From the NCBI GenBank assembly GCA_026874595.1, contig CM049312.1, positions 48,921,429-48,985,428 of the forward strand: 64,000 nucleotides of DNA, in the 5' to 3' direction. Origin of the DNA: Sipunculus nudus. Lineage: Eukaryota; Annelida; Sipuncula; Golfingiida; Sipunculidae. The position numbers were made by a program, and so were the translations under genes. Below the pieces are notes generated by a model. It was not told where the DNA came from, did no database searches, and worked only from the letters and a program-made list of their open reading frames with translations. This document shows, piece after piece, positions 1,827-42,343 of this stretch. Each line of letters opens with the position of its first letter. The stretch's first letter is position 1.

Positions 1827-4290
1827 AAAAAATATGATTTAGAAATGAGGCACATGCTGGTTTTGCGTGGTAATAAGAATAAGCTGTATTATGAGTTGTT
1901 GTTTAGCTTATGTATGATTTTGATAGTACCTTTGGAGACAGAGAAGAGAATTGATTTCATTTATTTTATTAACAAATGGAGTACTATTGTCACACAGATT
2001 TTGACTTGGCCATATAACTTATAAGCAGAACATATAATAAAAGAGTTAACTATTTATTAAAAAAAATTACAAATATTGTCCCAGATATAATTTTTATTAA
2101 AAATAATAAGAGAATTGTATGATTTTTAAAATGAAATATAACTGAAATGATTTTTAAAATAATATTAAAGAATATATTCATGAATGCATTCATGAATACA
2201 TTTGGAAAGTATTTGCACTGGTATTCATATACTCTCATTTTTACCTGAATTCCCATTCTTTATGCAAGAAATTTTATAATGGAGTACATAATCATATTCG
2301 TATTCAAATACAATTGCAATACCATGTCTGGTATTTATTCAGTTTTAGCCAAACAATGGTGTTGAGAATAAAGAATGTACAAAATTCACACTTTCAAATA
2401 ATGATCATAAGTACCTGGTTTTATGGCTTTTATTTATATTAAAAAAAATGTTATATATTCATTTTGGACAAATTTCACATCAATGTACACACTACACACA
2501 GTAGGAATCTAGATTAATATTATCAACTGCATCTTTGTCTATCATTAATTTCCTTCATATGATCCCTAATGATTAGTAATGAATGATATGATTTACTTTT
2601 TTATTATTAAAATTGAACTGAAAAATGCCATAGGTGACTGCATGGTGTTATTTGGAATACGTGACATTCTATCCATCAATACAAGATTCTTATATCATCA
2701 GTAACTGCAAGTTGATTCCCTATTATTATAAACTAACAAATTCCTTTTCTATTTTTCTTTAATTTGTTATTAAAAACCAATAAAAATTGATTAATTTATT
2801 GTTATGTTGTTGGTTAAAACTACTAGATGAGTTGGGTTGGACACCTGGATCATCTGTGGCTGGCCATAAGCTGCCTGGCTGCCCCAGTATATGCCTCGCC
2901 TCAAACGTGCATAATTTGCTGAAAGTTCAACAAGGTCAACATACAGGTGACTCAAGAGTGGCTGGAGAGAGCCAAGGTCTGACATGGTCTCATTAAAACA
3001 TTAATAAACTCTACAATTTTTGGCCAATTTCTTTCGGCTTTCTAAACTAAAAAGCTGAAATCCTTTTGTGTGCATGATATGAAAATTATATAAACAGAGC
3101 TCACACGAAACAAAAGTGATATGGTCAAATTTGGGTAAAATTTAAGGTACTAATTTTATATTTATACTAATAACTTATAAAATTTTAAAAATTCAGAACT
3201 AATTTTGGGTATTCAATTGAATCTTGATTAAATAATGTTACATCCCTGACAAAAAATCTCTAGCTTCAGCAAGCCCCATGTTAAGGGAGTAAATATATTT
3301 CTTGATTTTTTACAAAGTGCAATACGTTTGGGCCCATAACTTAGAACAATTACGCAATACTGACATCATTTCTGGCATGTGCACAGAGAATGTATAGAAA
3401 AACATGTATATTATATATGATTAAAGTCAGATCAGTGGTTTTGATATTAGGCAGTATTGAAGTGTAACAATGAGTTTTTAATTGAAAAATGAAGTTTTTC
3501 ATTAATATCTCAAAGGTATTAAGTCCTAGTGACCAAATTCTTGGCATGATAAGAGATTTTGGAGACATCTAATTGTATGCCAAATTTTACGAACTGAGAG
3601 CTTAAGCTGGGGAGCTGAGCTCTTGCAAACTGCATAACACTAGCCTGGTGTAAACAATATGTTACATGGTGCTTGAAAACTTGAATAAAATCTACAGTTT
3701 TTGATCAACTGGTTTCAAATTTTTGGTGTTAACAGACAAAATGCTAACAAAAACATGCTGAGAAAATTAAATCCACAGTACTTACAGGAAAAAAACGTGC
3801 CATGGTCAAAGTTCGGCAAAATTGAAGGTACCAATTTTTTATTTTTGTTAATATTTTAAAAAATTTAAAAGATTTTGATCTAATTTTTGGTAAACAATTT
3901 AATTTTGATTAATTAAAGTTATATTACTTGAAAAAAAGTCCATAGCTTTAACAAGTTTTGTGTTAAGTGATCAAATATCTTTCCTGATTTTTTACAAAAT
4001 GCATTATGTTCTGGCCAATTACTTTCTTAAACTAGAATACGGGTAGTCGACAAGCGACTACTTGTATCCGCCTAAATCAGAGTGGAACGGGTGAAGTGTT
4101 GCATATCAGCATGGATGTCTGCAGCCAAATTGTGTATGTAGGTTGCGCTACCTACCAAAAAACCCAGAAAGCCGTCCAAGTTGTATACATATGCAAAATT
4201 TAAGGCAGATAAGTCAAACCACTATATTGTATATGAGTGATTTTTGCCCTTGGCAGACAAACAGATCGACGCTGTGCAAAAAAGGGTTGC

Positions 4291-5500
4291 AGGTGGCGCC
4301 ACCAGTTTAGCGTATGATAAAGAGCTTTGTGAGAACTATACACATGCAAAATTTTGGCCCAATTGGTCAAACTGTCCCCTAGATATGAGCTTGGATGTCT
4401 GCAGCGTAAACTTGATTGTAGGTGGCGCCACCTGTCATAAAATCAGATAAGCTATCCAGGATGTATACGCATGCCAAATTTCAGGTGAATTAGTCAAGTC
4501 ACTGCAGAGATATGAGTGATTTTAACCCAAGGCAGACGAACAGATGGACACTGTGCAAACATGGTTGCAGGTGGCGCCACCATTTTTGGTGTATGTTATA
4601 AAGCTCTCCAAGGGCTACATTTGTGCAAAAAAATTTTCCTGATCAATCAAACGGTTCCTGAGATATGAGCTTGGATGTCTGCAGCGTAAACATGAATGTA
4701 GGTGGCGCCACCTGTCATAAAATCAGAAAAGCTATCCAGGATGTATACGCATGCCAAATTTCAGGTGAATTAGTCAAGTCACTGCAGAGATATGAGTGAT
4801 TTTAACCCAAGGCAGACAAACAGATGGACACTGTACAAACATGGTTGCAGGTAGTGGCACCATTTTTGGTGTACGTTATAAAGCTCTCCAAGGGCTACAT
4901 TTGTGCAAAAGAATTTTCCTGATCGGTCAAACGGTTCCCGAGATATGAGCTTGGATGTCTGCAGCGTAAACGTGAATGTAGGTGGCGCCACCTGTCATAA
5001 AATCAGATAAGCTATCCAGGATGTATACGCATGCCAAATTTCAGGTGAATTAGTCAAGTCACTGCAGAGATATGAGTGATTTTAACCCAAGGCAGACGAA
5101 CAGATGGACACTGTGCAAACATGGTTGCAGGTGGCGCCACCATTTTTGGTGTATGTTATAAAGCTCTCCAAGGGCTACATTTGTGCAAAAGAATTTTCCT
5201 GATCGGTCAAACGGTTCCCGAGATATGAGCTTGGATGTCTGCAGCGTCAACGTGAATGTAGGTGGCGCCACCTGTCATAAAATCAGAAAAGCTATCCAGG
5301 ATGTTTGCGCATGCCGAATTTCAGGTGAATTAGTTAAGTCACTGCAGAGATATGAGTGATTTTAACCCAAGGCAGACGAACAGATGGACACTGTGCAAAC
5401 ATGGTTGCAGGTGGCGCCACCATTTTTGGTGTATGTTATAAAGCTCTCCGAGGGCTACATTTGTGCAAAAAAATTTTCCTGATCGGTCAAACGGTTCCCG
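4291..5500 (+). repeat. 280-bp tandem array with GGTGGCGCCACC palindromes
   Basis: Core of the H3 element. The palindrome GGTGGCGCCACC starts at 4,292, 4,421, 4,570, 4,701, 4,981, 5,130, 5,261 and 5,410; the 4,850 copy is mutated. The spacing 4,701-4,981-5,261 and 4,570-(4,850)-5,130-5,410 is exactly 280 bp, and the units are nearly identical, so the latest expansion is young. Each 280-bp unit is itself two diverged halves of about 130-150 bp. Confidence 0.9.
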
Positions 5501-5672
5501 AGATATGTGGGTTTATGTGTGGAAACAGACGCACAAACGGACGCAGAGCGCAAAGGAAAGGTCAGAGGTCAAAACAAAATCGGGGCGCAGCAGTTCACAT
5601 GTGACCCGAACATAATCCCGGGTTTCGGAAAATTCCGCCCAGCGGTTACGGAGGAGTTCTCCGGACACCTAC

Positions 5673-5703
<31 letters not shown>

Positions 5704-5718
5704 CCAGCTGAAAACATA

Positions 5719-5748
5719 GTATCCGCAAAACTCTGTTTTGGCGGATAC
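5719..5748 (+). other. H3 3'-terminal hairpin
   Basis: Arms GTATCCGC and GCGGATAC (8 bp), inner stem AAAAC/GTTTT, 3-nt loop TCT, one unpaired G on the right arm. It is followed by the insertion junction. The same structure occurs at 8,818-8,847 and, mutated, at 57,586-57,615. Confidence 0.85.
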
Positions 5749-6101
5749 AATTATATAATACAGGCATAATTTCAAGCATATACATAGGAACTATATAGAG
5801 GAATATTTATGGTAAATATGAGGAAAAACAGATGAGTGGTTTTGATATTAGGCAGCCCTGAAGTGTGAAGATAGGTTTTTAATAAAAAAATGGAGGTTTT
5901 TCCTTAATTTCTCAAAGGAACAAAGTCGCAAAGACCCAGATTTCGGCTTGGTAGGAGATCTTGGGGACATCTAACACTATGCCGAATTTTGGATTCCTAG
6001 GTCTTACAGTTTCAAAACGTGCCACATCTACGGATGAACGGACGGACGGACTGACGGAAAAACTGACAGACGGACGGACGACGGACAATGAACCACGACT
6101 A

Positions 6102-6132
6102 TAGCTCAGATGACTTATAGTCAGCTGAGCTA
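6102..6132 (+). other. H1 3'-terminal hairpin
   Basis: Arms TAGCTCAG/CTGAGCTA (8 bp), one A/G mismatch, inner stem TGACT/AGTCA, loop TAT, then AAAA. The same 31-nt design recurs at 10,867, 25,999, 28,098, 33,120, 41,834, 49,202, 52,603 and 60,630. Confidence 0.9.
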
Positions 6133-7494
6133 AAAATCATAAAAAAAATACAGGTGGCGCCACCAGTCTGCAAAAACTGGTGAAACACTCCATGTTCAAT
6201 ATCCATGCTAAGAATCATGGTGATCAATGCATTAGTTGTTCAGATACTTGAGCTTTTGTATCAAATTTTTCATTATTCGGGGGGGGGGGGGGGGGGTACT
6301 TCAGAGCCCCATAGCTGTAAGAATATGAGTAACAGAGACATAATTCAAAGTTTCCAAGTAGACTTTTCATGGATCTATCTGCATGTAAAGTTAGAAGATT
6401 CCAGGTCCAGTGTTTACGATTTGTGCCCTGTTAACAGATTACCACATATTTTAAGGTCTCAAAAATAGAGGAAAATTATTGTTAAAAATCGAAAAAAATA
6501 CAGGTGGCGCCACCAGTCTGCAGAGACTGATAACACACTCCCTGATTAATATCCACACAAAGAATCATGGTGATCAATGCATTAGTTGTTCAGACACTTG
6601 AGCTTTTGTATAAAAAATTTCATTATTCTGGGGTACACTTCGGAGCCCCATAGCTCAAAGAATATGGGTAACCTAATTCTAGGTTTCAAAGGAGATTTTT
6701 CATGGACCTCTCTGGATGTAAAGTGAGAAGATAACAGGTCCACTGGTTACGATTTGTGCCCTGTTAACAGATTACCACATCTTTGAAGGTCTCAAAAATA
6801 GATGAAAAATATTGTTAACAATCGAAAAAAAATACAGGTAGCGCCACCAGTCTGCAGAAACTGATAACACACTCCCTGATTAATATCCACACAAAGAATC
6901 ATGGTGATCAATGCATTAGTTGTTCAGACACTTGAGCTTTTGTATCAAAGTTTTCATTATTCTAGGGGTACTTCAAAGCCCCATAGCTGTAAGAATATGG
7001 GTAACAGAGACATAATTCAAGGTTTCCAAGTAGACTTTTCATGGACCTCTCTTGATGTAAAGTGAGAAGATTCCAGGTCCACCAGTTACGATTTGTGCTC
7101 TGTTAACAGTTGACAGCATTTTTGGATGTCTCAAAAATAGAGAAAAAAAAAATCATAAAAAAAAAATTACAGGTGGCGCAACCAGTCTGCAGAAACTGAT
7201 GTAACATCCCATGATCAATATCCAAGCAAAGAATCATGGTGATCAATGCATTAGTTGTTCAGATATTTGAGCTTTTGTATCAATTTTTTTATTATTGGGG
7301 GGGGGGGGGGGGGGGAGTACTTCGGAGCCCCATAGCTTGAAGAATTTGGTTAACAGTGACCTAATTCCAGGTTTCAAAGGAGATTTTTCATGGATCTATC
7401 TGCATGTAAAGTTAGAATATTCCAGGTCCAGTGTTTACGATTTGTGCCCTGTTAACAGATGACGGAATCTTTTAAGGTCTCAAAAAGGAGAAAA
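6133..7494 (+). repeat. H1a core repeats (about 340-bp monomers) of an outer element
   Basis: Four monomers, each starting near an ACAGGTGGCGCCACCAGTCTGC-type phrase (6,163, 6,503, about 6,839, 7,172). They belong to an outer H1 element whose 5' part is upstream of the window and whose 3' part resumes at 10,898-11,264. Poly-G tracts of 18 and 19 nt (6,279-6,296; 7,297-7,315) sit at the same monomer position. Confidence 0.8.
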
Positions 7495-7676
7495 ACAAGT
7501 GACCCATGGGTCATGACGCTCAGCTGACTGGGAAGAGATTCGCAAAAGGAAATTTTATCACCAGAATGGTAGTATATACCCATTCAACTGAAGCATCAAA
7601 CAGATTAACCAACAGGCCAAGATTTAGTCTGTATTTATATATCTCAAAAATAGAGAAAAATGTGTAAACTTTTAAA

Positions 7677-8848
7677 ACTAGAATACGGGTAACCGACAAG
7701 TGATTACATGTATCTGCCAAAATCGGATAGTGAGGCATGGATTGAGTGGCAAGGGGAAATAGAGTGAGGTATGTTGCATATTAGCATGGATGTCTGCAGC
7801 CTAAATGTGTATGTAGGTTGTGCCACCTACCACAAATCCAGAAAGCTGTCCAAGTTGTATACACCTGCAAAATTTTAGGCAGAAAAGTCAAACCACTACA
7901 TGTATATGAGCGATTTTTGCCCATGGCAGACAAACAGACAAACACTGTGCAAAAATCTTTGCAGGTAACCCCTCCAGTTTTGTGTATGATAAAGACCTAT
8001 GTGAGATCAAAACACTTCACAATTTTGGCCCAATCGGTCAAATGGTTCCTGAGATATGAGCTTGGATGTGTCCAGTGTTAACTAGAATGTAGGTGGCGCC
8101 ACCTGTCATAAAATCAAGAAAGCTGTCCACGATGTATAAACCTGCAAAATTTTAGGCAGTTATGTCGAACCACTACAGAGAAATGAGTAATTTTAGGCCA
8201 CGGCAGACCAACAGACAGACGCTGTGCAAACATTGTTACAGGTGGCACCACCATTTTTTGTGTATGTTACAGAGCTATCAAAGGGCTACATTTGTATAAA
8301 TTTTATTTCCTGATCGGTCAAACGGTTCCCGAGATATAAGCTTGGATGTCATCAGCGTGAACATGAACGTAGGTGGCGCCACCTGTCATAAAATCAAGAA
8401 AGCTATCCTGGATGTATACACATGACGAATTTCAGGTGAATTAGTCAATTCACTGCAGAGATATGAGTGATTTTAACCCAAGGCAGATGAACAGATGGAC
8501 ACTGTGCAAACATGGTTACAGGTGGCGCCACCATTTTTTGTGTATGTTATAAAGCAATCCAAGGGCTACATTTGTATCAATTTTATTTCCTGATCGGTCA
8601 AACGGTTCCCGAGATATGAGGGTTTATGAGTGGAAACAGACCCACAAATGGACACTGGATAGAGAGGAAAGGTCAGAGGTCAATGCAAATTGGTTAGGCA
8701 CCAGTTCACATGTGACCCGATAATAGGTGTAAGTTTGGGAAAAATCGGTCCATTAGTCTCTGAGGAGCTCTCTGGAAACGAACGCCGCCGCGGGGGAGGA
8801 ACTCGGTCAAAAACATAGTATCCGCAAAACTTCGTTTTGGCGGATACA
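7677..8848 (+). mobile_element. H3 helentron-like element, complete
   Basis: Begins ACTAGAATACGGGTAACC and ends with the hairpin at 8,818-8,847 (loop TTC). The homologous H1a copy at 34,112-35,673 is uninterrupted at this point (aaacttttaaaaaaatacagg, near 34,285), giving an empty site inside the window: the insertion is in an A-run with no obvious target duplication beyond A residues. The core has palindromes at about 8,092, 8,372 and 8,520. Confidence 0.85.
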
Positions 8849-10866: not shown

Positions 10867-10897
10867 TAGCTCAGATGACTTTCAGTCAGCTGAGCTA

Positions 10898-13829: not shown

Positions 13830-13831
13830 GC

Positions 13832-13892: not shown

Positions 13893-14122
13893 ATAGATGT
13901 GTCTGAACGACAAGAATGCCCCCGCCTGGGGCAAATTGGAAACATTTGTTATATTGTCGTATGGTCAAAAGTAGGTCAACAAGGGCAAAATACAAACTCG
14001 ATCTGTAACGGGTCATTATCAAGCAACACACCGAAAATCAGGCCGGTATCTGCAGGCATTGTGAAAAAAAGTCCATACATGTGCAAACATTAGGCCAGTA
14101 TCTGTAAGCACTGCATTGCAAA

Positions 14123-17100
14123 ACTAGAATATTAGCAAAAGCTGATAATCAGTTATAAATTTAAATAGGAGAGGTATGTACCATGTTTCATAACAATCCA
14201 CCAAATGCTTCCTGAGAAATAAGCTCCTTAGTTTTTTTTATACTAAGCTCTGTGACCTTGAAAAGTAGGTCAAGAACACCCATCTTTGAACTTGACACAG
14301 ATTTTGTAAATATCATGCATTAGCACTGAAGAAATGAAGTTCCTGTGTTGAAGACCTTTGGAGATATCCTGCACAAAAGGCCAACATTGAAAAATCTGAT
14401 AAAAAATTCATTAAAAAATCAGAAATTGTAGGTGGTGCTACCAAAATTGTGCAGCACGTACAGACCATCAGTCCCAATGATCATTATTAAGTAAGTTTTG
14501 TGAAAATCCACACAATGGTTCCTGAGATATAAGCTTCTGAGTGTTTTTCTAAAATCAGCTCTAAAACAAAGAAAAATAGGTCAAGGTCACCCATCTTTGC
14601 ACTTGACCAAGATTTTTTTATATACATCTTCACTGATGAAATAAAATTCCAATGGTGAATGCTTTTAGAGATATCCCGCTCACAAGGCCAAAATTGAAAA
14701 AATCCAATAAAAATTGATTAAACTAGATGTGTCGGAACGACACGAATGCCCCCGCCTTGGGCAAATTAGAAACATTTGTAAAATTTTGAAAATTTTTTTA
14801 GGTTCAGAAGGTGTCGTATGGTCAAAAGTAGGTCAACAAGGGCAAAATGCAAACTCGATCTGTAACGGGTCATTATCAAGCAACACACCAAAAATCATGC
14901 CAGTATATGCAGGCATTGTGAAAAAAAGTCCATACATGTGCATTTTCCATAAAAATTTCTGTCTTTCATGAAATTTTCTATGTTTAGGAGCCGTAAAACA
15001 ATCAAAAGTAGGTCAACCGGGATGAAACGCGAACTCGATCTGTAACTGTCATTATCTGCCCACACAAAAAAAATCAGGGTGGTATCTGCAGGCATTGAGG
15101 AAAAAAAGTCAGTACATATGCATTTGTTATGAAAATTTATATTTTTCATGAAACTTTCTATGTTCAGGAGCAGTCAAATGGTCAAAAGTAGGTCAACTGA
15201 GAGAAAACAAGAACTCGATCTGTAACTGGTCATTATCTGCCTACACACCAAAAATCAGGCCCGTATCTGCAGGCACTGCGAAAAAAAAGTCCATACATAT
15301 GCACCTTTTTATGGAATTTCTTTGTTAGAGCACCGTCAAACGTTCAAAAATAGGTCAACAAGGGCAAAATGCAAACTCGATCTGTAACGGGTCATTATCA
15401 AGCAACACACCGAAAAACATGCCATTATATGCAGGCATTGTGAAAAAAAGTCCATACATGTGCATTTTCCATAAAAATTTCTGTCTTTCATGAAATTTTC
15501 TATGTTGAGGAGCAGTCAAATGGTCAAAAGTAGGTCAACTGAGAGAAAACAAGAACTCGATCTGTAACTGGTCATTATCTGCCTACACACCAAAAATCAG
15601 GCCCGTATCTGCAGGCACTGCGAAAAAAAGTCCATACATATGCACCTTTTTATGGAATTTCTTTGTTAGAGCACCGTCAAACATTCAAAAATAGGTCAAC
15701 TGGGACAAAACGTGAACTTGATCTGTAACTGGTCATTATCTGCCCACACACCAAAAATCAGGCCAATATCTGCAGGTATTGTGAAGAAAAGTCTGTACAA
15801 GTGTATTTGTCGTGAAAATTTATGTTTTAAATGAAATTTTCTATGTTCAGGAGCCGTAAAACAGTCAAAAGAAGGTCAACCAGGACGAAATGCGAACTCA
15901 ATCTGTAACTGGTCAATATCTGGCCACACATAAAAAATCAGGCCAATATCTGCAGGAATTGCGAAAAAAAGTCTGTACATGTGTATTTGTCATGATATTT
16001 CATATTTTTCATGAAATTTTCTATGTTCAGGAGCCGTAAAACGGTCAAAAGTAGGTCAACCAGGACGAAACGCCAACTCGATCTGTAACAGGTCTATATC
16101 TGCTCACACACCAAAAATCAGGCCAATATCTGCAGGCATTGCGAAAAAAAGTCTGTACATGTGTATCTTTCATGAATATTTCTATTTTTCATGAATTTTC
16201 TGTTTGTACAACGGTCAAAAGTAGGTCAACCGGGACGAAACGCAAACTTGATCTGTAACTGGTCTATATTTGCCCACACACCAAAAATCAGGCCAATATC
16301 TGCAGGCACTGCGAAAAAAAAGTCCGTACATGTGTATCTGTCATGAATATTTCTATTTTTCATTAAATTTTCTAAGTTTAGGAGCCGTAAAACAGTCAAA
16401 AGTAGGTCAACTGGGACGAAACGCGAACTCGATCTGTAACTGGTCTATATCTGTCCACACACCAAAAATCAGGCCAATATCTGCAGGCACTGCGAAAAAA
16501 AGTCCGTACATGTGTATTTGTCATGAAATTTCATATTTTTCATGAAATTTTCAATGTTCAGGAGCCGTAAAACGGTCAAAAAAAGGTCAACCAGGACGAA
16601 ACGCGAACTCGATCTGTAACTGGTCTATATCTGCTCAAACACCAAAAATCAGGCCAATATCTGCAGGCATTGCAAAAAAAAGTCCGTACATGTGTATCTG
16701 TCATGAATATTTCTATTTTTCATGAAATTTTCTAAGTTTAGGAGCCGTAAAACGGTCAAAAGTAGGTCAACCGGGACGAAACACGAACTCGATCTGTAAC
16801 TGGTCTATATCTGCCCACACACCAAAAAGTAGGCCAATATCTGCAGGCATAGCGAAAAAAAGTCCGTACAACTGTTTGATTTCGGATTGACGGAAGGACG
16901 GAATGACGGACATGGGTAAAACTATATGCCCTGGCCACTTTGTGGCGGGGGCATAAAAATCAGAAATTGGAGGTGGCTCCACCAAAATTGTGCAGCACAT
17001 ACAGACCATCAGTCCCAATGACCATAGTAAGTTTTGTGAAAATTCACACAATGGTTCCTGAGATATAAGCTTCTGAGTGTTTTTCTATAATCAGCTCTAA

Positions 17101-18455: not shown

Positions 18456-18486
18456 TATGCCCCGGCCACTTTGTGGCGGGGGCATA
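18456..18486 (+). other. H2 3'-terminal hairpin
   Basis: Arms TATGCCCC/GGGGCATA (8 bp), G/G mismatch, inner stem GCCAC/GTGGC, loop TTT: the same 8-1-5-3-5-1-8 plan as H1 with unrelated sequence. Also at 16,925-16,955 and 42,313-42,343. Confidence 0.9.
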
Positions 18487-18774
18487 AAAAATCATGTTGA
18501 TCAATGCATTAGTTGTTCAGATACTTGACCTTTCGTATATAAATTTTTTAATATTCTGGGGGTACTTCAGAGCCCCATAGCTTAAAGAATATGGGTAACA
18601 GAGACCTAAAACCCGGTTTCCAAGGATATTTTTCATGAACCTCTTTGGATGTAAAGTTAGAAGATTCCATGTCCAGTGGTTATGATTTGTGCCCTGTTAA
18701 CCGACAGACAGCCTAACGGCTGACAGACAAAGAGTGATCGCTACAGCTCAGTTGACTTACAGTCAGCTGAGCTA
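18487..18774 (+). mobile_element. H1 3' part (right half of the interrupted monomer)
   Basis: Resumes the H1 monomer cut at 13,892, runs through an ACGG-like stretch and ends with the hairpin at 18,744-18,774 (AGCTCAG/CTGAGCT, TGACT/AGTCA, loop TAC). Confidence 0.8.
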
Positions 18775-21108
18775 TAAATCTTATTTAAATATATGTGGAG
18801 ACAGAGGGAACTCTCTTTAAACAGTATTTAAATAACTGAACAAAGCTTTCAACATTTGAACCAATGACAGTCATGTAATCAGATGTAGGGTTGAAAAGTG
18901 GAGCATCCCTAGTAACAGAGGCATCATCGTTATGTACAGTCAAGCCGGCTTATTGTCTTGTTGGTTGTGCATGCATAAATTATGATAATAACTGGGATGC
19001 GACATTATGCGGGCCTCAACATAAATGTCCTTTTGAATCATAGAAGAAGCGTTATGTCTCAAATTATATTGATATATTGTCAATAAAAAGGAAACAAATG
19101 TTTATGGATATTTTTATTGCTCAATGGCATATCAAATTACGTTTAAGCGCACCTGGCAATTTATTTCCTGTAAGTTATGTGCCGCATGCTGCAATAATCG
19201 ATAATAATCCGACTTGCCAACAGAAAGAGATGTAGCGTCTGGGTCATGAGGTCAAATGTCTGAAAAATATGTGGCACAGTAATAACGTTATGCATAGGCA
19301 AACCTTTTCACTAGATAATTCTTTCCCCTACTATTGCGCATATTTTCCAGATATCTTATTAATGACTAAAACTTCCATCATCTTTATGATAGGACTTTTC
19401 TGGGAGTGGGTATTGTCACGCCTTTGTCAACATTCTGAAGTTTCGCCGCGATTGCGGTTTTGGACTGGGCATCTCCTCCAGTGTTCACAAAACCTCCAGC
19501 ATTTCGTGGGCCCTTAAAGAATATTTCCAGTCGTAAGCAAAGTTTACAGCTCGTGCTTCATATCATCTCAGCGACCATTGCCGAGGTGTAAACCACAGCC
19601 TTGCAAAGGCCAGGAGTTCATTATGTATAACATGTGATTGCAAACATCACCCTTGTTAACAGGCGAAAAAATGTAATGATCTGGATTACCGTGGTATCTT
19701 AGGATGTAGATTGGCTAAGTGACAGGGAGTGACCCGCATGCATCACTACACTGCCGCATGCATCACTACACTGCCTCACACAGGTGGTAGACGTGAACGT
19801 TTGATACGCCTGACAAATTACAGCCTCTTAGCCTCCTTGATAGCCATTTCGGCATTTGATGTGATATTAACTGAGAACTGGTATTACTGCCAAGGTTCAA
19901 AGCATGACAATAATCGGGATTATGACAATATTGTGTGATATTAAAAGGTCAGTTTTACCACTGTTTATATAGGAAATGGTTTGGAATTTCAGATTTATGT
20001 GACAATAAACAGGATTTTCTATTAACCGATATGACACAAAGTGGGCTCGACTGTATTCAACTGTGTGCCATATCATAACCGTTTGACAAGGCGACCCATG
20101 GTCAGCTCAGCTAAATATCCTTTATTATCACCCAATACTGACTGATACTGCCTTACAAATGATGTTCAATGCAACAGGAATATAGTTTGGAAATTTTGTT
20201 TCCATGTACAATTTATCTTTTTTTTTTTATTTATTAATATATCTTTATTTTCGGTGGCATATACTGATCTTCCATAAGGCCCTGATAGTAATTAAAATTT
20301 CAAACATAAACAAATAACATGACAGTATTATATACCATACAGGTTAACATATATTCAGGTTATCAACCATGTTCATAACATTGTATGAAATAAGTGCAGA
20401 GAATAATATGCATGAAGTTTTTTTTCTTTCAAACTAATGAAAAAAGTGTGATTTATCTTTGGGGAAGAAAGGTACCTATTTATTCTATCATATCGACCCC
20501 TCCATTAATTTGACCATGGAAAATGTCTGGTGACAATAATTTCTAAATTTCCTAAAATTTTCGACCGTGAATCAAATTTGATGAACAAGCCTAGAATGTT
20601 GTTGATATAAAATCTACTATGATTGCTTTTGATGCCAACGTGAAAGTGTTGGCGAATTTCAAAATGGCGGAATCTAGTGATCACTTGGTAGAATAAATAT
20701 GGTAATTAGTCTTCAGCCCCTACTGTAACCACTTTAGAGGTATACTCCAAACAGGTTGAAAAATCTTTAAAAAATAAACAGGGCAGAAGCACCTATAAGG
20801 AAAAGTGTTACTAATGTCAGCTGTGTAATTTCAGACTACAATTTCACCACTCTTTTGCCTGTGTATGATAATTTATTACAATGTGAACCTTGACAATTGT
20901 TATGCCTTCTGTATACATCCATTTATGGCATGGAAAGCATTAAAACAAATATGACAAGGAAATAATGTTCCATATCACATAAAATGAGCCAGCCTGTTAT
21001 CTTTGTGCAAAAAAAATATTTAATATTTCCTTGTCAAATCCTGTCAGCTCAATAGGGTTGGAAAGAATCTTAATATAATAAGAACTGCAAAACTTAAATC
21101 AGGGGTGT
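18775..21108. other. Unassigned AT-rich region
   Basis: No convincing gene or element. It holds a perfect 20-bp tandem duplication (GCATGCATCACTACACTGCC, about 19,736-19,775) and a short H1-terminus-like scrap near 20,092-20,116 (GACCCATGGTCAGCTCAGCTAA). The open frame at 19,269-19,517 has no recognisable domain and is probably chance. Confidence 0.45.
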
Positions 21109-26203: not shown

Positions 26204-28128
26204 ACAAGGGACCTATGGGTCACTGTGCTCAGCTGACGTTAACCTTGAAGGTAAAAATCTAAAATAATATCAAATGGAGATAAAGTGTATGAGGAAGAGG
26301 TAATAAAGGCCATGGTTGGTTTATATGATTAGTTTGTATTGATGAGCAAGAAATTGTTGCAAAAAATATTTTGTGACCTGACCATGTGTTTCCTAATGTT
26401 GAAACTAAAGCATGTGAGCAGTTTGTGAACAAATGATCTGTACTATTACCATGATCATTAGTTGGTTTTTCGATTAACTGTTGACATTTCAGTAATTTAC
26501 ACATTTGTTCAATGGAATCTATTTTTTTGTATAATATATATTATTAAATATATATGTATTTTTTTAATGAAATGTATACATTTGAAATATAGCTAATTAA
26601 CAACATAAAACAGGGCAAACAAAGCCTGATCTCAAATTCTGCTGAGGCAGGAAAATAATGAACAAATGTTTGTATTAAATCCTCATTTTTTTTATCACAT
26701 CAATTATTTTCTAATTTAAGTTTATATTTCTATACATTTCCAATTTAACATATATATCTGAATATAAAAGTTGATTCATAATTCTCAATTGCATCATCAT
26801 AAATCTCAATCTTGTCAGATAACACCACATCATGCATACAAATGTTTATTTATTTTTTACCACAAAAATATATCTTTTAAATCTGCAAAACAATAAATAT
26901 CTAAAAATAATACTTGATTTAGATTTCACAATTTTTAATTGTGTCTTTATTTATCCATTATGTGCTTCATATTTTATAATAATTTAAGCATACTGATGGG
27001 TTCAATAATATTTGTTAAAATCATTTAAAAGAAAATTGATTTCTTTAAAAATGCTACATTACACAACATTGCATCTTCTGCATTACACCTTGAATTATTT
27101 TTTCATGGAAAGTTTTTGCATATCGGAGTGAAAACAGCATTACAATTAAGGAGATACAGTGAAAACAATAACAATTACTGCATAACACTTGGTGGGCTGA
27201 TTTTGCGGGGGGGGGGGGGGGGGGGGGGGGTTGATTGGGGTGGTGATATGAGAATAACTGTACACCTGTCACAACAGGGGATCTCCCCCAGTGACTGTAA
27301 CAAATCAGAAACCCTGGCATAGCTGACTTCCAGTGACCTGGAGTGGGACCCTGCATCTGTAATCAAAGCAAGTGACTACAGAAAAAAAATCAATAACTAG
27401 CTTAATTTTCAAGCTTTTATTTTCAAATTTCAGATTTAGACAAACTAAATATTTATGTTTACATGCTGTGAAAATTAAATCAATGGTACTTACAGGAAAA
27501 AAACATGCCATGGTCAAAGTTGGGCAAAATTTAAGGTGCTGATTTTTTTTTTATGCTAATAACTTAAAAAATTTACAAAATTCAGATCTAATTTTGGGTA
27601 AACAATTGAATCTTAATTAAACATAGTTATATACTTGAGAAAATAGACTCTAGTTCCAATATTTTTCATGTTAAGCGAGTTATTATTTTTCCTGAATTTT
27701 TACAAAGTCCATTATGTTTGGGCCCATAACTTAAAGAATTTATACTTTACAGACTTAATTTCTGGCATGTACATAGAAACCATATAGAGGAATATTTATG
27801 GTAAATATGAAGAAAAACAGATGAGTGGTTTTGATATTAGGCAGTCCTGAAGTGTGAAAATAGGATTTTAATAAAAAATTGAGGTTTTTCCTTAATTTCT
27901 CAAAGGAATGAAGTCGCAAAGACCCAGTTTTCGGCTTGGTAGGAGATCTTGGGGACATCTAACATTATGCTGAATTTTGGATTCCTAGGTCTTACGGTTT
28001 CAAAACGTGCCACATCTACGGACGGACGGACGGACGGACGGACGGACGGACGGACGGACGGACAGACGGACGGACGACGGACAATGGACCACGACTATAG
28101 CTCAGATGACTTATAGTCAGCTGAGCTA
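26204..28128 (+). mobile_element. H1b helentron-like element, complete (copy 1)
   Basis: About 1.9 kb, nearly identical to 39,958-41,864 and to 45,296-49,232 once that copy's 2.0-kb insertion is removed. 5' end ACAAGGGACCTATGGGTCAC then GCTCAGCTGACG; G24 tract at 27,207-27,230; a long pure ACGG run at about 28,018-28,080; hairpin 28,098-28,128. The AT-rich body has no plausible coding frame. Confidence 0.85.
28018..28080 (+). repeat. (ACGG)n microsatellite
   Basis: More than ten ACGG units with a few substitutions, directly upstream of the H1b terminal hairpin. The same position is occupied by shorter ACGG runs in the other H1 copies. Confidence 0.95.
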
Positions 28129-29036: not shown

Positions 29037-30599
29037 GGCCATCCTTAAAAAGTTCTGTGTTGGGGCTAACCCGGCCGGTCGTGATTTTTGGCTGCGGCTC
29101 GAATTTTTTTTTTGACATATCTGCAAATTAATATTTTTATATGATCTGCCGCAAGCACCTGGGCCCGTAAAAGTCTGCCTTCATGTGCTAGAAAAATAGT
29201 CCTTCTATTACATTTTTAGATGCACTTAATTTTCATAATGAAAGGTATTTCCCAACGTCGCCGATCGTTTAATATGAGCCCTAACAATTAGTCAGGTGGT
29301 GCCTATATATATACACGTGAAACGATCGCTACACTCGTGCGCGAGAGTAGAAAAACTGCCGGGAAACCGCCACCAAATTTCGTTGTTCTGTCGAAACAGG
29401 CTGAAAAAAAAATATTGAGCAATAAGAAATGTAGTCCATCTCTGGACCCTTGTGTCCTATGTTAGACCTGATGGACGGACACCTACGTGTCCGTCCATCA
29501 GGTCTAACATAGGACACAAGGGTCCAGAGATGGACTAGTCTGGCCCCAGTCTTTGAGAGTCATGCAGCACTTTCGGGATCATCAAGGCCAATGACCATTC
29601 CATATTCCAAAACAATCCATCCAGTGGTTCCTTAGAAATAAGCTCCAAAGTTTTTTTTCTAATATAAGCTCTTTGACCTTGGGTCATCCATCTTGGAACT
29701 TGACCAAGATTTCGTTGATATGTATCAGCACCAAAGAAATGAAATTTCTGTGTTGAATACTTTTGGAAATATCCTCCTTACATGGTAAATGTTAACACAC
29801 GCCGGTTATTTTCTATAATTCGCTCTAAAACGTCGAGAAATAAGTCAAGGTCACCCATCTTCGAACTTGACCAAGATTTTGTTTGTATATACATCAACAC
29901 CGAAGAAATAAAATTCCTAATCAGGGTACCGACATCCAATATATGGTTTCATCTTTCAAAAAGTACAGTTTTACATATATTTATATAAACATTTTATATA
30001 TTCTACTACCTTATTAGGCATTGACTATTACTAAAGAGTTCATTTATTACCGTCCTTATTAATTATACCTCTTCACTTGCAAAGGAAATCTCGAACTGCA
30101 CTTATTCCTACAATTCTGGCACTCGCATACAACACAAGATAAAATTGTCTGCAAATTCATGCGAGATCCAGAACAAGGCTTACAGGCCTAATGCGAACCT
30201 GTGCAATGGGATATACATCAGTTATAATGCTTCCATGATAACATGCTTGACTATTATTGGAAAAGTACTTGATAACTTTTCAAATACGTGAATGTTTGAC
30301 ATGTACATATTCAAAGCATGTACTAAAACATTTTAAACCCAAGTACAGGATTTTAAGCCTGTAATAAAACACAAAATCTGTTCAGAGATACCTTGTTGTG
30401 CATGTTTCAATGGTATTGAGGCAAGGAATGAATGGAGTACGGGTATGTAATTTGACATAACCTCGATATGCTAATATCCGGTAAAAAAAGGTGTAGTAAA
30501 CTCCAGATCCTCCTTTAAAAAAAATATTTTTTTCCTCCCTACCTGATGACTTTTTTTGGACCAATGTTAGCCCCAACACAGAAATTTTTAAGGATGGCA
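29037..30599. mobile_element. TIR DNA transposon, PIF/Harbinger-like non-autonomous (composite)
   Basis: Ends GCCATCCTTAAAAAG... and ...TTTAAGGATGGC form 34-bp terminal inverted repeats with two mismatches (29,037-29,070; 30,566-30,599). TAA flanks both sides (29,034-29,036; 30,600-30,602), and the related H1c copy near 2,230 has a single continuous site, so TAA is the target duplication. A 3-bp TWA duplication is the hallmark of PIF/Harbinger. No transposase frame is visible. The interior holds H4-like core sequence and a 106-bp palindrome. Confidence 0.75.
29432..29537. repeat. 106-bp perfect palindrome (51-bp arms, 4-nt loop)
   Basis: Left arm 29,432-29,482 and right arm 29,487-29,537 are exact reverse complements around CTAC. 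The left arm begins TAGTCCATCTCTGG and the right arm ends CCAGAGATGGACTA. Confidence 0.95.
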
Positions 30600-33150
30600 T
30601 AACATTTTTACCTGTATTCCTATCCTTATACATGAAATTATGGAGTACATATTCATATTTGCATTCAAATACATTTGTAAAGTACAGTACTGCACTATGT
30701 CTGGTATTTATTCAGTTTCAGCCAAACAAAGTTCTTCAGAATCCAGAATAAACAAATATCACAAATTTAAATAATGATCATAAGTACCTGGTTTTATGAA
30801 ATTTATTTATATTAAAAAAATAAAACTATAATATTCACTTTGGACTACCTACACATCAATCTACACACTAGACATAGCAAGAGTATTATGACAATTATTA
30901 ACATTACAGAAATCATAATGAGAACTTGTCCAATATCTGATTTTTTATCATATTCATAATTTTTAAATAAAAAAAAATGTATCAGAAAAAAATTTGAAGT
31001 ATCTCAGCAATGAAACCATTATATGTGTAAAAAATAACCCAAGGATAAGAACAACCTATAAATTATACAAGGAGAAAACTAGAGATGGGTTAGTTTTAAT
31101 TTTATTAACTGAAATATAGGAACCAGTAATATAAATTTTGATTATTTACGTAGTCTTGTGACAGCTGTTACAGCCACGTGTCTGAATGTCATAAGTGAAA
31201 CATATGACATCTTTAATCAGTACCTGACTGAGTAAAATTTAAAAATTTTGACATTTTTACTTTTTTTTTAATTTTGAAATAAATATAAATTAACAAGCTG
31301 AAACACTTGGAAAAGACCTGGGAATTTAGATTTATATTATAAACTGCATCTTTGTAAATAACAATATAATTTAATAATTTTTTTTTTCATTATTAAAACT
31401 GAAAAGAAAAATACCATATGTGACTCAATGGCGTTACTTGGAATACATTTTCATCCATCCATACAAAATCCATAAAACATCAGTAACTGCAAGGTAAATT
31501 CCCTGTTACTCATCAACTGTCAAATTCCTTTTCTACTGATTATTTTTAAAGTTGTTATTATAGATCTATAAAAATTTATTTATTCATTGTTTATTGTTAT
31601 GCTGTTGGTCTAAACAACTAATAGATGAGCTTGGTTGGACACCTGGATCAGCTGTGGGGAGCAATAAGCTGCCCAGCTGCAAGTATATGCCCCGCATCAT
31701 GCATGCATAATTGGCAGGAAAGGTCAAGTAGAGGACATACAGGTGACTGAATAGGGCCTGGGTAGAGCCTGGATCTGACATGGTGTCATAAAAACTTTAA
31801 TATAAGCTACAGTTTTTGGCCAATTTCTTTCAACTTTCAAAAATAACAAGCTGAAATCCTTATTTCTGCATGATATGAAAAATTATATCAACAGTGCTTA
31901 CACGAAACAAACATGCCATGATCACAATTAGGCAAAATTTAAGGTACTGATTTTATATTTATACTAATAACTTATAAAATTTGAAAATTCAGAACTAATT
32001 TTGGGTATACAATTGAATCTTGATTAAATAATGTTATATCTCTGACAAAAAAAAATCTCTAGCTTCAGCAATTTTTTATGTTAATGGAGTAAACATATTT
32101 CTTGTTTACAAAGTGCATTATGTTAGGGCCCATAACTTAAAACAATTTCGCAATACCCACATCATTTCTGACATGTGCATAGAGTATAAATAGAAGTCAA
32201 ATCAAAGTCAGATCAGTGGTTTTGATATTAGGCAGTCTTGAAGTGTAACAATTAGTTTTTAATTGAAAATTAAAGTTTTTTCTTAATATCTCAAAGGAAT
32301 GAAGTTCTAGTGACCAAACTTTTGGAATGGTAGGGGGATCTAACTGTATGCCAAATTTTGGGAGCTAAGAGCTGGCCTGGGAAGCTGGGGAGCTGAGCTC
32401 TTGCAAACTGCATTACATTTGCTTGATCTAAACAATACAATACATGGTGCTTGAAAACTTGAATAAAATCTACAGTTTTTGATCAACTGGTTTCAAATTT
32501 CAGATGTTAAGAGATGAAATGCTTATGGTATCATGCTGTGAAAATTAAATCCACAGCAGTTACAGGAAAAAAATGTGCCATGGTCAAATCTGGGCAAAAT
32601 TTAAGTTACTGATTTTATATTTATGCTAATAACTTATAAAATTTAAAAAAATCAGATCTCATTTTTGGTATACTATTGAATCTTGATTAAATATAGTTAT
32701 ATACCTGAAAGAAAGTCTCTAGCTTCAGCAATTCTCAGGTTAAGGGAGTAAATATATTTCCTAAATTTTTTCAAAGTGCATTATGTTTGGGCCCATTGCT
32801 TCAAGAATTTTAAGATATTGAAGTAATTTCTGGTATGTACATAGGAAATATACAGAGGAATTAATATATTAAAAATGGTCAATATCAGGTCAGTGGTTTT
32901 GATATTAGGCAGTCTTGAAGTGTAACAATGGGTTTTAAATGGAAAACGGAGGTTTTTCCTTAATAATTCGAAGGAGCAAAGTCCTAGAGACCCAATTTTC
33001 GGTATGGTAGGAGATTAATGGGACATCTAAAGGTATGCCGAATTTTAGATTTGTAGGTCAAATGGTTTAAAAATGTGCCAGTTTAACGGACGAAGCCGAC
33101 GGACAAAAGACCACGACTATAGCTCAGATGACTTATAGTCAGCTGAGCTA

Positions 33151-34028: not shown

Positions 34029-34111
34029 GGAGCCCATAGTGCTAGAAAAGTGCACTTCTGGATAAAATTTTGGCTCTTTGCCCAGTGTTAATATAGATCA
34101 TGAGGAATATA

Positions 34112-35673
34112 ACAAGTGACCCATGGGTCATGACGCTCAGCTGACTGGGAAGAGATTTGCAAAAGGAAATTTTATCATCTGAATGGTAGTATATAACCAT
34201 TCAACTGAAGCATCAAACAGATTAAACAACAGGCTGATATTGTGTCTGTATTAATATATCTCATAAATAGAGAAAAAATGAGTAAACTTTTAAAAAAATA
34301 CAGGTGGCTCCACCAGTCTGCAGAAACTAATGAAACATCTTATGATGAATATGTATGCCAAAAATCATGACCATCAGTGATGTAGTTAATGAGATATTGA
34401 AGTTTTTGTATGAAATTTTTCACTATTCTGGGGGGTACTTTCGGGCCCCATAGCTCGAAGAATATGGGTAACAGAGACCTAAATTCTGGTTTCCATGGAG
34501 ACTTTTTATAGGTCTCTTAGAATCTCAAGAATGAAGATTCTAGATCCAGTCTTTATGATTTGTGCCCTGTTAACAGATGTCCACTTTTTAAAGGTCTCAT
34601 AAATAGAGAAAAAATGAGTAAACTTTTAAAAAAATACAGGTGGCTCCACCAGTCTGCAGAAACTAATGAAACATCTTATGATGAATATGTATGCCAAAAA
34701 TCATGACCATCAGTGATGTAGTTAATGAGATATTGAAGTTTTTGTATGAAATTTTTCACTATTCTGGGGGGTACTTTGGGGCCCCATAGCTCAAAGGATA
34801 TGGGTAACAGAGACCTAATTTCTGGTTTCAATGGAGACTTTTCATAGGTCTCTTAGAATGTCAAGAATGAAGATTCTAGATCCAGTCTTTATGATTTGTG
34901 CCCTGTTAACAGATGTCCACATTTTTAAAGGTCTCAAAAATGAGAAAAAAATTCGTAAAAAATAAAAAAATACAGGTGGCGCCACCAGTCTGCAGGAACT
35001 GATGAAACATCTCATAATCAATATGTATGCCAAAAATCATGACCATCAGTGATGTAGTTAATGAGATATTGAAGTATTTGTATCAAATTTTTCACTATTC
35101 TGGGGGGTACTTTTGGGCCCCATAGCTCGAAGAATATGGGTAACAGAGACCTAATTTCTGGTTTCCATGGAGACTTTTCATAGGTCTCTCAGAATCTCAA
35201 GAATGAAGATTCTAGGTCCAGTCTTTACGATTTGTGCCCTGTTAACAGATGTCCACATTTTTAAAGGTCTCAAAAATAGAGAAAACAATTCGTAAAAAAT
35301 AAAGAAATGCAGGTGGCGCCACCAGTCTGCACGAACTGATGGAACATCTCATGATCAATATGTATGCCAAAAATCAAGACCATCAGTGATGTAGTTAATG
35401 AGATATTGAAGTTTTTGTATGAAATTTTTCACTATTCTGGGGGGGTACTTTGGGGCCCCATAGCTTGAAGGATATGGGTAACAGAGATCTAATTCAAGGT
35501 TTCCAAGGAGATTTTTCATGGACCTCTCTGAATGTAAAGTAAGAAGATTCCAGGTCCAGTGGTTACGATTTGTGCCTTGTTAATGGACAGACGGCCGGAT
35601 GGCTGGACGGCTGGACGGACAACGGACAAAGAGTGATCGCTATAGCTCAGATCACTTACAGTTAGCTGAGCTA
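34112..35673 (+). mobile_element. H1a helentron-like element, complete and uninterrupted
   Basis: Best intact H1a reference in the window: 5' palindrome TGACCCATGGGTCA and GCTCAGCTGACT, four core monomers of about 340 bp (several with GGTGGCGCCACC), an ACGG-like run, and a somewhat decayed hairpin at 35,643-35,673. It supplies the empty site for the H3 insertion at 7,677. Confidence 0.85.
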
Positions 35674-35677: not shown

Positions 35678-35719
35678 TTGTTGGAAGCACTTCGGCCGAC
35701 CCTTCTGGCGGCCATTTTG
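35678..35719 (+). repeat. Left arm of a distant inverted pair
   Basis: 'ttgttggaagcacttcggcc' and the following bases match the reverse complement of 42,844-42,887 over about 42 bp with several mismatches. It may be a terminal repeat of a large element or just two inverted copies of a short repeat. Confidence 0.5.
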
Positions 35720-39404: not shown

Positions 39405-42343
39405 ACTAGATGTGTCGGAACGACACGAATGCCCCCGCCTTAGGCAAATTAGAAACATTTGTAAAATTTGGAAAAGTTCAGGAGGTGTCGTATGGTCAAA
39501 AGTAGGTCAACAAGGGCAAAATGCAAACTCGATTTGTAACGGGTCATTATCAAGCAACACACCAAAAATTATGCCAGTATATGCAGGCATTGTGAAAAAA
39601 AGTCCATACATGTGCATTTTCCATAAAAATTTCTGTCTTTCATGAAATTTTCTATGTTTAGGATCCGTAAAACAATCAAAAGTAGGTCAACCAGGATGAA
39701 ACGCAAACTCCATCTGTAACTGTCATTATCTGCCCACACAAAAAAAATCAGGGTGGTATCTGCAGGCATTGAGGAAAAAAAGTCAGTACATATGCATTTG
39801 TTATGAAAATTTATATTTTTCATGAAACTTTCTATGTTCAGGAGCAGTCAAATGGTCAAAAGTAGGTCAACTGAGACAAAACAAGAACTCGATCTGTAAC
39901 TTGTCATTATCTGCCTACACATAAAAAATCAGGCCCATATCTGCAGGCACTTGGAAAACAAGGGACCTATGGGTCACTATGCTCAGCTGACGTTAACCTT
40001 GAAGGTAAAAATCTAAAATAATATCAAATGGAGATAAAGTGTAAGAGGAAGAGGTAATAAAGGCCATGGTTGGTTTATATGATTGGTTTGTATTGATGAG
40101 CAAGAAATTGTTGCAAATAATATTTTGTGACCTGACCATGTGTTCCCTAATGTTGAAACTGAAGCATGTGAGCAGTTTGTGAACAAATGATCTGTACAAT
40201 TACCATGATCATTAGTTGGCTTTTCGATTAACTGTTGACATTTCAGTAGTTTACACATTTGTTCAATCAAATCTTTTTTTTGTATAATATAAATTATTAA
40301 ATATGTTTTTTTTTATGAAATGTATACAGTTGAAATATAACTAATTAACAACATAAAACATGGCAAACAAAGCCTGATCTCAAATTCTGCTGATGCAGGA
40401 AAATAATGAACAAATGTTTGTAACAAATCCTCATTTTTTTATCACATCAATTTTTTTTTAAATTTAAGTTTATATTTCTATACATTTTCAATATAACATA
40501 TATATCTGAATATAAAAGTTGATTCATAATTCTCAATTGCATCATCATAAATCTCAATCTTGTCAGATAACACCACATCATGCATACAAATGTTTATTTA
40601 TTTTTTACCACAAAAATATATCTTTTAAATCTGCAAAACAATAAATGTCTAAAAAAAAAACTTGATTTAGATTTCACAATTTTGAATTGTGTCTTTATTT
40701 ATCCATAATGTGCTTCATATTTTATCATAATTTAAGCATACTGATGGGTTCCATTATGATTGGTAAAATCATTTAAAAGAAAAATGATTTCTTTAAAAAT
40801 GTTACATTACACAACATTGCATCTTCTGGATTATACCTTGAATTACTTTTTTAAGGAAAGTTTTTGCATATCAGAGTGGAAACAGCATTACAATTAAGGA
40901 GATACAGTGAAAACAATAACAATACTGCATAACATTTTGTGGGTTGGGTTTGCGGGGGGGGGGGGGGGGGGGGGGGAATGGGGTGGTGATATCAGAATAA
41001 CTGTACACCTGTCACAGCAGGGGATCTCCCCCAGTGACTGTAACAAATCAGAAACCCTGGCATACCTGACTTCCAGTGACCTGGAGTGGGACCCTGCATC
41101 TGTAATCTGTAATCAAAGCAAATGACTAAAATAGAGCCTCAAGAAAAAAATCAATAACTAGCTTAATTTTCAAGCTTTTACTTCCAAATTTCAGATTTAA
41201 ACAAATTAAATATTTTATGTTTACATGCTGTGAAAATTAAATCAATGGTACTTACAGGAAAAAAACGTGCCATGGTCAAAGTTGGGCAAAATTTAAGGTA
41301 CTGATTTTATTTTTATGCTAATTACTTAAAAAATTTACAAAATTCAGATCTAATTTTGGGTAAACAATTGAATCTTAATTAAACATAGTTATATACTTGG
41401 GAAAATAGACTCTAGTTTCAAAATTTTTCATGTTAAGTGAGTAAATATTTTTCCTGATTTTTTACAAAGTCCATTATGTTTGGGCCCATAACTTAAAGAA
41501 TTTATACTTAACAGACTTAATTTCTGGCATGTACATAGGAACTATATAGAAGAATATTTATGGTTAATATGAGGAAAACAGATGAGTGGTTTTGAAATTA
41601 GGCAGTCCTGAAGTGTGAAAATAGGATTTAAATAAAAAATTGAGGTTTTTCCTTAATTTCTCAAAGGAACGAAGTCGCAAAGACCCAGTTTTCGGCTTGG
41701 TAGGAGATCTTGGGGACATCTAACATTATGCTGAATTTTGGATTCCTAGGTCTTACGGCCTCATGCCACATCTACGGACGGACGGACGGACGGACGGACA
41801 GACGGACGGACGACGGACAATGGACCACGACTATAGCTCAGATGACTTATAGTCAGCTGAGCTAAAAAGTCCATACATGTGCACCTTTTTATGAAATTTT
41901 CTATGTTAGAGCACCGTCAAACGGTCAAAAATAGGTCAACTGGGACAAACATGAACTCCATCTGTAACTGGTCAATATCTGCCGACACACCAAAATTCAG
42001 GCCAATATCTGCAGGCATTGCGAAAAAACGTCTGTACATGTGTATTTGTCATAAAATTTCATATTTTTCATGAAATTTTCTATGTTCAGGAGCCGTAAAA
42101 CGGTCAAAAGAAAGTCAACCGGGACGAAACCCGAACTCGATCTGTAACTGGTCTTATCTGCCCACACACCAAAAATCAGGCCCATATCTGCAGGCACTGC
42201 GAAAAAAAGTCCATACATGTGCACCTTTTTTATGAAATTTTCTATGTTTTCAGGCACAACTGTTTCATTTCGGAATGACGGAAGGACGGAATGACGGACA
42301 TGGGTAAAACTATATGCCCCGGCCACTTTGTGGCGGGGGCATA
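39405..42343 (+). mobile_element. H2 helentron-like element with nested H1b
   Basis: 5' end ACTAGATGTGTCGGAACGAC (mini-hairpin GTGTCG/CGACAC) then ATGCCCCCGCC; about 180-bp monomers; 3' hairpin 42,313-42,343. The H1b at 39,958-41,864 is inserted in the A-run of one monomer ('ctgcaggcac...aaaaagtcc'), where other monomers read continuously. Confidence 0.85.
39958..41864 (+). mobile_element. H1b helentron-like element, complete (copy 2)
   Basis: Nearly identical to 26,204-28,128. G23 tract at 40,954-40,976, ACGG run at about 41,776-41,815, terminal hairpin at 41,834-41,864. A clean insertion within H2. Confidence 0.9.

Follow-up and report, generated by a model that had tools for sequence, protein, structure and literature searches.

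Three element families with one end design

The DNA analysed here, called the window, is a stretch of 64,000 nucleotides (contig CM049312.1, C7:48921429-48985428, forward) from the 1.43-Gb genome of Sipunculus nudus. It contains copies of three transposon families, H1, H2 and H3, which lie on the minus strand. Read on that strand, an element starts, in most copies after a run of T, with a subterminal inverted repeat (subTIR), a 3-nt loop and an imperfect inverted repeat (IR), followed by a microsatellite, tandem repeats, a 3' subTIR, a palindrome and the terminus. The 5' subTIR and the adjacent IR form a hairpin with one flaw in the middle of its stem, and a base able to pair there is retained in the distant 3' subTIR. 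The microsatellite is of the GTCC type and is clear in H1, the tandem repeat units are about 336, 180 or 280 bp long, and the 3' termini read CTTGTT or TCTAGTTT. A first-pass annotation, made by a model from the letters alone, had proposed that three families with unrelated sequences have one end design; the motifs it named are present in the window.

The 5' subTIRs are AGCTCAGCTGACT for H1, ATGCCCCCGCCAC for H2 and GTATCCGCCAAAAC for H3. As that annotation had described, one mismatch separates 8 bp from 5 bp in the hairpins of both H1 and H2, and the loop has 3 nt; the irregularity of H3 is a 1-nt bulge. When a subTIR with no more than one mismatch is required as anchor, the window has 13 hairpins of H1, 3 of H2 and 3 of H3, and all 19 are flawed, the IR never being the exact complement of its own subTIR. 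The H1 hairpin at 6102..6132 has the loop ATA and the IR AGTCATCTGAGCT, with a T where a G would pair, and the same T mismatch is found at 10867..10897, 28098..28128, 33120..33150, 49202..49232 and 60630..60660. The copy at 18742..18776 has A at the flaw (IR AGTCAACTGAGCT), and the one at 51570..51601 is a bulge form whose IR, AGTCATGCTGAGCT, contains one extra T. Among the 13 H1 copies the flaw is T in ten, A in one and a T bulge in two, the second of the bulge forms, at 49902, having lost its outer IR arm. The H2 hairpin at 42313..42343 (loop AAA, IR GTGGCCGGGGCAT) and its second copy at 18456..18486 both have C where G would pair. In H3, at 5719..5748, the loop is AGA and the IR, GTTTTGCGGATAC, lacks one G; the copy at 8818..8847 lacks the identical base. 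Each family thus has one flaw, as had been claimed, but not the same one, the base being different, H3 having a bulge and H1 varying between copies.

At the other end, the H1 palindrome has 11 matches in the window at up to two mismatches, against 0.16 expected from shuffled sequence, and the H3 palindrome three against 0.01, so a chance origin was rejected for both. The H2 palindrome is found at 14729 and 39412, and position 13899 has a variant of it. An H1 3' end, such as those at 7494..7529 and 34111..34146, consists of the subTIR AGTCAGCTGAGC, the spacer GTCA, the palindrome TGACCCATGGGTCA and CTTGTT. A second class of H1 3' ends, ending GTGACCCATGGGTCCCTTGTT or near it, occurs alongside the TGACCCATGGGTCACTTGTT class, at window positions 24279 and 28588 and in the inspected stretches L020 and L027. 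For H2, the subTIR GGCGGGGGCAT (39429..39439) is followed by the palindrome GTGTCGTTCCGACAC and ATCTAGTTT (39412..39426). For H3, the subTIR core GGCGGATAC (4064..4072), which had been taken for a 5' segment, precedes the palindrome GTAGTCGCTTGTCGACTAC and, on the minus strand, CCGTATTCTAGTTT (4043..4061). Contrary to the first-pass description, the distant segment does not directly adjoin the palindrome; a spacer of 2-4 nt, TGAC in H1, GA in H2 and TT in H3 when read from the palindrome, lies between them.

A base able to pair at the flaw is present in all 17 of the 3' ends found by their palindromes (11 H1, 3 H2 and 3 H3), a count read from the matches listed. It leaves out the H3 end near 7692, in which the palindrome has changed too far, and a degenerate H1-like match at 20093. 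The proposed pairing of the distant segment across the flaw therefore holds; that this pairing is perfect holds for some copies only. The 3' segment matches the subTIR over 11 nt in all three H2 ends, but over 12 nt in only two of the 11 H1 ends (nine of 11 match over the 9-nt core CAGCTGAGC) and over 9 nt in one of four H3 ends, the end near 7692 included. The other three H3 segments have one change each, away from the flaw.

Whole elements can be delimited in a few places. An H3 element with tandem repeats of about 280 bp spans 4031..5748, its 3' end at the low coordinate, where the boundary is a probable one. Judged from both ends, an H2 element probably extends over 39405..42343 and encloses an H1 element at 39957..41864, the 5' hairpin of which lies at 41834-41864.

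The flaw across copies and families

Pattern searches of the whole genome, the counts of which are lower bounds, show how regular the flaw is. For H2, 4,392 places lie within three mismatches of a perfect hairpin; among the matches listed, 21 distinct places are perfect and the next 29 distinct places have a single mismatch that is always at the flaw, 28 with one base and one with another. For H1 there are 43,038 such places. The best 100 of these matches are all perfect and represent 82 distinct places, reaching into contig 11, from which very roughly 125 perfect H1 hairpins, or roughly 0.5%, can be extrapolated for the genome. Their loops are many and different, as expected from scattered mutation rather than from one amplified lineage. 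When all other stem positions of H1 are required to be intact, 25,393 strand hits are obtained, and the first 100 have T at the flaw 97 times, A twice, C once and the pairing G never. The H1 bulge form with intact anchors gives 1,529 hits, which is an upper bound only.

For H3, a pattern allowing the IR base to be present or absent gave 2,723 matches for each strand, and the base is absent in all of the first 100 listed. The H3 3' segment, for which 3 to 9 bases were allowed, is of full length in all of the first 100 of 5,892 hits, 72 of which read GGCGGATAC exactly. On C1, these segments fall into the classes ATTTAGGCGG and ATTTTGGCGG, and the variant GGCAGATAC occurs in 12 of the 100 listed. 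Reversed patterns gave no hits as controls for the H1, H2 and H3 hairpin searches, the H3 3'-segment search and one search for further families; in three other further-family searches they gave 104 against 5,068, 152 against 3,632 and 98 against 945. The imperfection is thus retained in nearly all sampled copies of several families, as had been predicted, and hairpins with perfect pairing are the exception.

With four further families, seven (H1-H7) now have both ends known from pattern searches and inspected copies. The IR of H4 (AGCCCTCAGCC) contains an extra T; in H5 (AGGGCCCCGCTT) the flaw is a T mismatch, a T bulge or AT for G; in H6 (TATCCCCTCGCAAC) it is AA for G, and in H7 (TGTCCCCCGCTTCC) one missing base or a T bulge near the loop. 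In the best-matching form of each of the seven, the IR has its flaw at a single place, after 5 to 9 outer pairs, and the 3' subTIR matches the 5' subTIR without a break over 9 to 14 nt. The fit is worst for the form H7a, in which the flaw lies at or near the inner end of a 10-bp stem. Among copies with a 3' end, the full core is matched in four of four for H4, four of six for H5, one of two for H6 (over 9 nt, these two copies being the basis of the H6 3' end) and one of six for H7 (L040, over 10 nt). Read by eye, the kind of flaw has changed within H1, H5 and H7, between mismatch, bulge, two-base swap and deletion, and has never been lost.

Between families, all three pairing segments change together and the flaw is retained. 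This bears out a suggested joint change of the two hairpin arms and the distant segment: where the arm differs between families, the segment differs with it. A single conserved flaw base, T, for all families was rejected, the base being C in H2, missing in H3 and H7b, and AA in H6. Reading by eye shows flawed 5' hairpins in H10 and H11 as well; their 3' ends were not found in the stretches inspected (L017; L044-L048). With the strings used, no 3' end was identified in L006, L013, L016, L017, L018, L042 and L044-L049. H8 and H9, with one copy each and unclear stems, were left out of the counts. A TATAGT core lies just past the IR in H1, H2, H5, H6, H10 and H11, despite their differing subTIRs, two of the search patterns having required it; the sequence at this place differs in H3, H4 and H7.

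Direction and classification of the elements

The direction of H1 is fixed by coding elements. PF14214 has at least 143 matches in this genome and none in 14 control genomes. Four open reading frames (ORFs) of 1658 to 2426 amino acids were examined, and all four contain Helitron_like_N and PIF1 domains and the Rep motif RGSPHxH, the S of which is of the Helentron type (PMC4067079; statements on this and the other papers cited refer to the passages covered). Twelve Rep loci, four long stretches and eight short flanks, were viewed on their 3' side. An H1-type 3' end lies downstream on the same strand at six of the 12 and on the opposite strand at none. Two of the six (D_C7 and L029) have common flanks, leaving five independent loci, and the 3' end in L036 is possibly a separate insertion. 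The Rep/helicase elements on C17 and C5 agree as far as ACTTGTTT and diverge beyond it, and on the 5' side of the C17 element, at a distance of about 14 kb, lies an H1 5' hairpin with the common T flaw, the element's putative left end. As the H1 3' ends are downstream of the Rep ORFs on the same strand, the hairpin first described as 3' is the 5' terminus; the Rep/helicase loci and the C17 hairpin rule out the orientation given at first pass, and its 5' and 3' labels are reversed.

Rep/helicase partners with matching ends were found for H1, but not for the other families, and a search for shared 11-mers at both ends of the ORF elements gave only noise. No endonuclease family was detected in the four ORFs at E values up to 0.001, a negative weakened by the three of them that were analysed without their last 33, 116 and 136 residues and by the possible incompleteness of the 1658-residue ORF. 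Three Rep/helicase ORFs (L025:2-6928, L021:3500-9901 and L023:2-6871) contain DUF6570, two of these an OTU-like protease domain and one a match to a herpes-tegument N-terminal domain. Within the 5' region of the 14-kb Rep/helicase element on C17, at about 35625477-35639637, sits an H3 element. As the copy on C5 near 42912065 is alike across this stretch, the two elements seem to have been copied together.

Several traits of Helitron2 are present. A 5' asymmetric terminal inverted repeat (ATIR) lies near the 5' terminus and forms the 5' hairpin, and a 3'-ATIR lies directly upstream of a 3' hairpin in H1-H4, H5b, H6 and H7a, the palindrome being unclear in H5a and H7b. A Rep/helicase partner with the family's own ends, the left one putative, is found for H1 only. 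Runs of T precede most 5' ends in the window; the search patterns for further families required them. Of the Helentron and HINE traits, the subTIRs, microsatellite, central repeats and 3' palindrome are present, and the C-terminal endonuclease domain of strict Helentrons was not seen in the four partner ORFs, three of them analysed without their last residues. Canonical Helitrons (Helitron1), which have 5' TC, 3' CTRR and no 5' hairpin, were rejected, a 5' hairpin being present and the ends being CTTGTT or TCTAGTT. We assign the elements to the Helitron2 type, with an architecture like that of DINE-1/HINE, and do not class them as proven HINEs, because the endonuclease was not found in the four ORFs.

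The IR of Drosophila melanogaster DINE-1, too, departs from the subTIR at its centre, with two bases exchanged for one. The layout of the present elements has been published for DINE-1, HINE and Helitron2 (PMC2374699, PMC7492417, PMC3627910, PMC4067079). As in Helitron2 (PMC3627910), the 5'-ATIR forms a hairpin, the 3'-ATIR is just upstream of the 3' hairpin and insertion is probably by T; Bao and Jurka (2013) proposed there that pairing of the subTIRs displaces, and so destroys, the 5' hairpin. Unlike our description, the Helitron2 text mentions no fixed flaw in the 5' hairpin and does not contain the word mismatch, its figure being outside the passages covered. With the DINE-1 of Drosophila (Yang and Barbash 2008, PMC2374699) the elements have in common subTIRs, a partial IR beside the 5' subTIR, a GTCY microsatellite, central tandem repeats, a 3' stem-loop and probably TT insertion, but the subTIR sequences differ. 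Cg_HINE of the Pacific oyster (PMC7492417) is alike by description, not by sequence: it has subTIRs of 11-12 bp, an IR of 7-12 bp, a microsatellite of mostly 4-nt units, satellite-like repeats, and a 3' subTIR followed by a palindrome. Most of its elements are dominated by subTIRs with one mismatch, and copies vary here too. In FoHeli1/2 of Fusarium (PMC5148889), an inverted repeat at the 5' hairpin recurs within the 3' hairpin and joined ends were detected by PCR; their ends and insertion site differ from those of the present elements.

A published statement of a fixed 5'-hairpin flaw common to families was not found in the texts covered, which did not include figures, supplements and most subscription papers. 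The element type, the layout and the two-state idea are known, and the regularity of the flaw was not found in print. Of the conserved two-state switch suggested at first pass, the kept flaw and the pairing across it stand, but the novelty of the two states does not (PMC3627910, PMC2374699, PMC4067079).

Folding of the joined ends and the role of the flaw

H1, H2 and H3 are non-autonomous Helitron2-type (DINE-1/HINE-like) rolling-circle transposons on the minus strand. Tentatively, and with somewhat less than an even chance, we propose that in them the flaw enables a switch between the 5' and 3' ends. The local hairpin would mark the 5' end during strand displacement. When the 3' end arrives, or a circle joins both ends, the flaw would let the 3' subTIR displace the IR; the ends would then pair around a loop that holds the 3' palindrome and the junction, marking the point of cutting and joining. 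This would be the proposal of Bao and Jurka with a reason for the flaw added, namely that it keeps the two pairings near balance.

Folding with DNA parameters was done for 26 real copies, each with its two ends taken from a single element; for the window copies of H1 and H2, these are presumed pairs based on order along the window. Left out were L001 (no loop left), L004 (decayed IR), L009, L014, L015, L019 and L020, and four of the 11 window H1 3' ends had no usable 5' end to pair with. The subTIR is predicted to pair with the 3' end more than half of the time in 12 of the 26 with the native IR, against one of 26 with the IR made perfect. Native copies with the joined state dominant are five of eight for H1, two of three for H2, none of three for H3, two of two for H4 and for H5a, none of two for H5b, none of two for H6 (one at 0.50), one of one for H7b and none of three for H7a. 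In 18 native copies the joined and local states are within 3 kcal/mol, while with a perfect IR the local state is ahead by about 3 kcal/mol or more in 25. In these calculations the flaw shifts the ends towards balance, yet many copies remain local; the folding fits a metastable 5' hairpin able to yield to the 3' end, as Bao and Jurka proposed.

A number of points weigh against the switch. The joined state is unfavoured in 14 of the 26 native copies despite the flaw, some of them decayed. Idealised folds of nine typed forms had given a dominant joined state in seven native forms and one with a perfect IR; some of these forms mixed motifs from different copies and are superseded by the 26 real ones, in which the case for the switch is weaker. 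Part of the shift is to be expected in any event, since the local hairpin would be weakened by whatever flaw lay in mid-stem. In a scan of other single changes, the native flaw ranks among the more disruptive of its class in several forms; siting for greatest destabilisation was nevertheless rejected, a rough hand estimate being jointly not significant, and the position of the flaw gives no clearly greater effect than others. The copies of a family have their flaw in common by descent, and as it was inherited from each founder, copy number is no evidence of selection. The subTIRs of H1 and H4, of H2 and H3 and of H10 and H11 are similar, so ancestry may be shared between families. Central placement is partly a matter of ascertainment, since a hairpin with its flaw near the stem end would be counted as having a perfect stem of lesser length. 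Few amplified changes of flaw type are seen, none of them to perfect, which may be chance. Finally, Helraiser, a Helitron1, forms joined circles without inverted end repeats (PMC5876387).

The flaw might instead be read by protein, the main rival with a precedent from experiment: the Rep (HUH) domain would recognise the unpaired or mismatched mid-stem base of the folded 5' end, like the single-strand transposases of bacteria. In the TnpA-REP and IS608 systems, too, the hairpins on which HUH enzymes act are irregular in mid-stem. REP hairpins of Escherichia coli have conserved mid-stem mismatches, the repair of which abolishes TnpA-REP activity, a protein pocket accommodates an unpaired T of IS608, and the ISDra2 transposase touches a mismatched stem base, although one REP group has perfect palindromes (PMC8266576). 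These bacterial ends are not homologous to ours, and the irregularity was tested there in the laboratory (PMC8266576). Reading by Rep is independent of the balance of folding energies and would suit those folded copies in which joined ends are not preferred. H1, H1b, H4, H5a, H5b and the H7a form have T as the odd IR base, but no one base is kept throughout, given the C of H2, the missing base of H3 and H7b and the AA of H6, which speaks mildly against it; we consider such reading unlikely.

Rather unlikely, too, is that only the match between the 5' and 3' subTIRs matters, the IR needing no more than rough pairing and inheriting the flaws of founders. The Drosophila IR has been termed partial and/or interrupted (PMC2374699), perfect H1 and H2 hairpins are about as rare (0.5%) as scattered mutation would make them, and the amplified changes of state, none of them to perfect, are too few to be set against chance. 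Such relaxed constraint does not readily account for one flawed place, never none, in each of seven families with quite different sequences and an otherwise paired stem, nor for the retention of a flaw by H1, H5 and H7 when its kind switched. Instability of perfect short palindromes in the host, through replication stalling or hairpin nucleases, would let only flawed ones persist, and perfect copies are indeed rare among the matches listed. However, the unflawed 3' palindromes of these same elements (TGACCCATGGGTCA, GTGTCG...CGACAC) persist, one-base changes yielding perfect hairpins are still present in the genome, and a 13-bp stem is rather short to be unstable in this way, making this explanation very improbable.

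That the single mid-stem flaw is a selected rule of Helitron2-type transposons, retained as the three pairing segments change in step, whether as a trigger of strand exchange by which the 5' subTIR passes from the adjacent IR to the distant 3' end or as a structural tag read by an HUH enzyme and converging with REP and IS608, falls just short of an even chance in our estimate. The flaw may help both ends to find each other. The first-pass suggestion that the imperfection is functional because independent families have it is plausible but unproven, descent being shared within families and the independence of the families doubtful. Recurring in thousands of matches and at least seven families, the one-base flaw is a well-defined target for repair and testing, and it provides a sequence rule for finding and orienting elements of this type.

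Two other features of the window may be mentioned. At 54341-56076, a 331-bp tandem array lies beside a CAGA/CAGACAAA microsatellite and resembles another such element; no flawed 5' hairpin was seen there. Two inverted repeats of 16 bp lie outside all families identified: the one at 29466-29503 is perfect and has a loop of 6 nt, and the one at 47830-47865 has a single mismatch.

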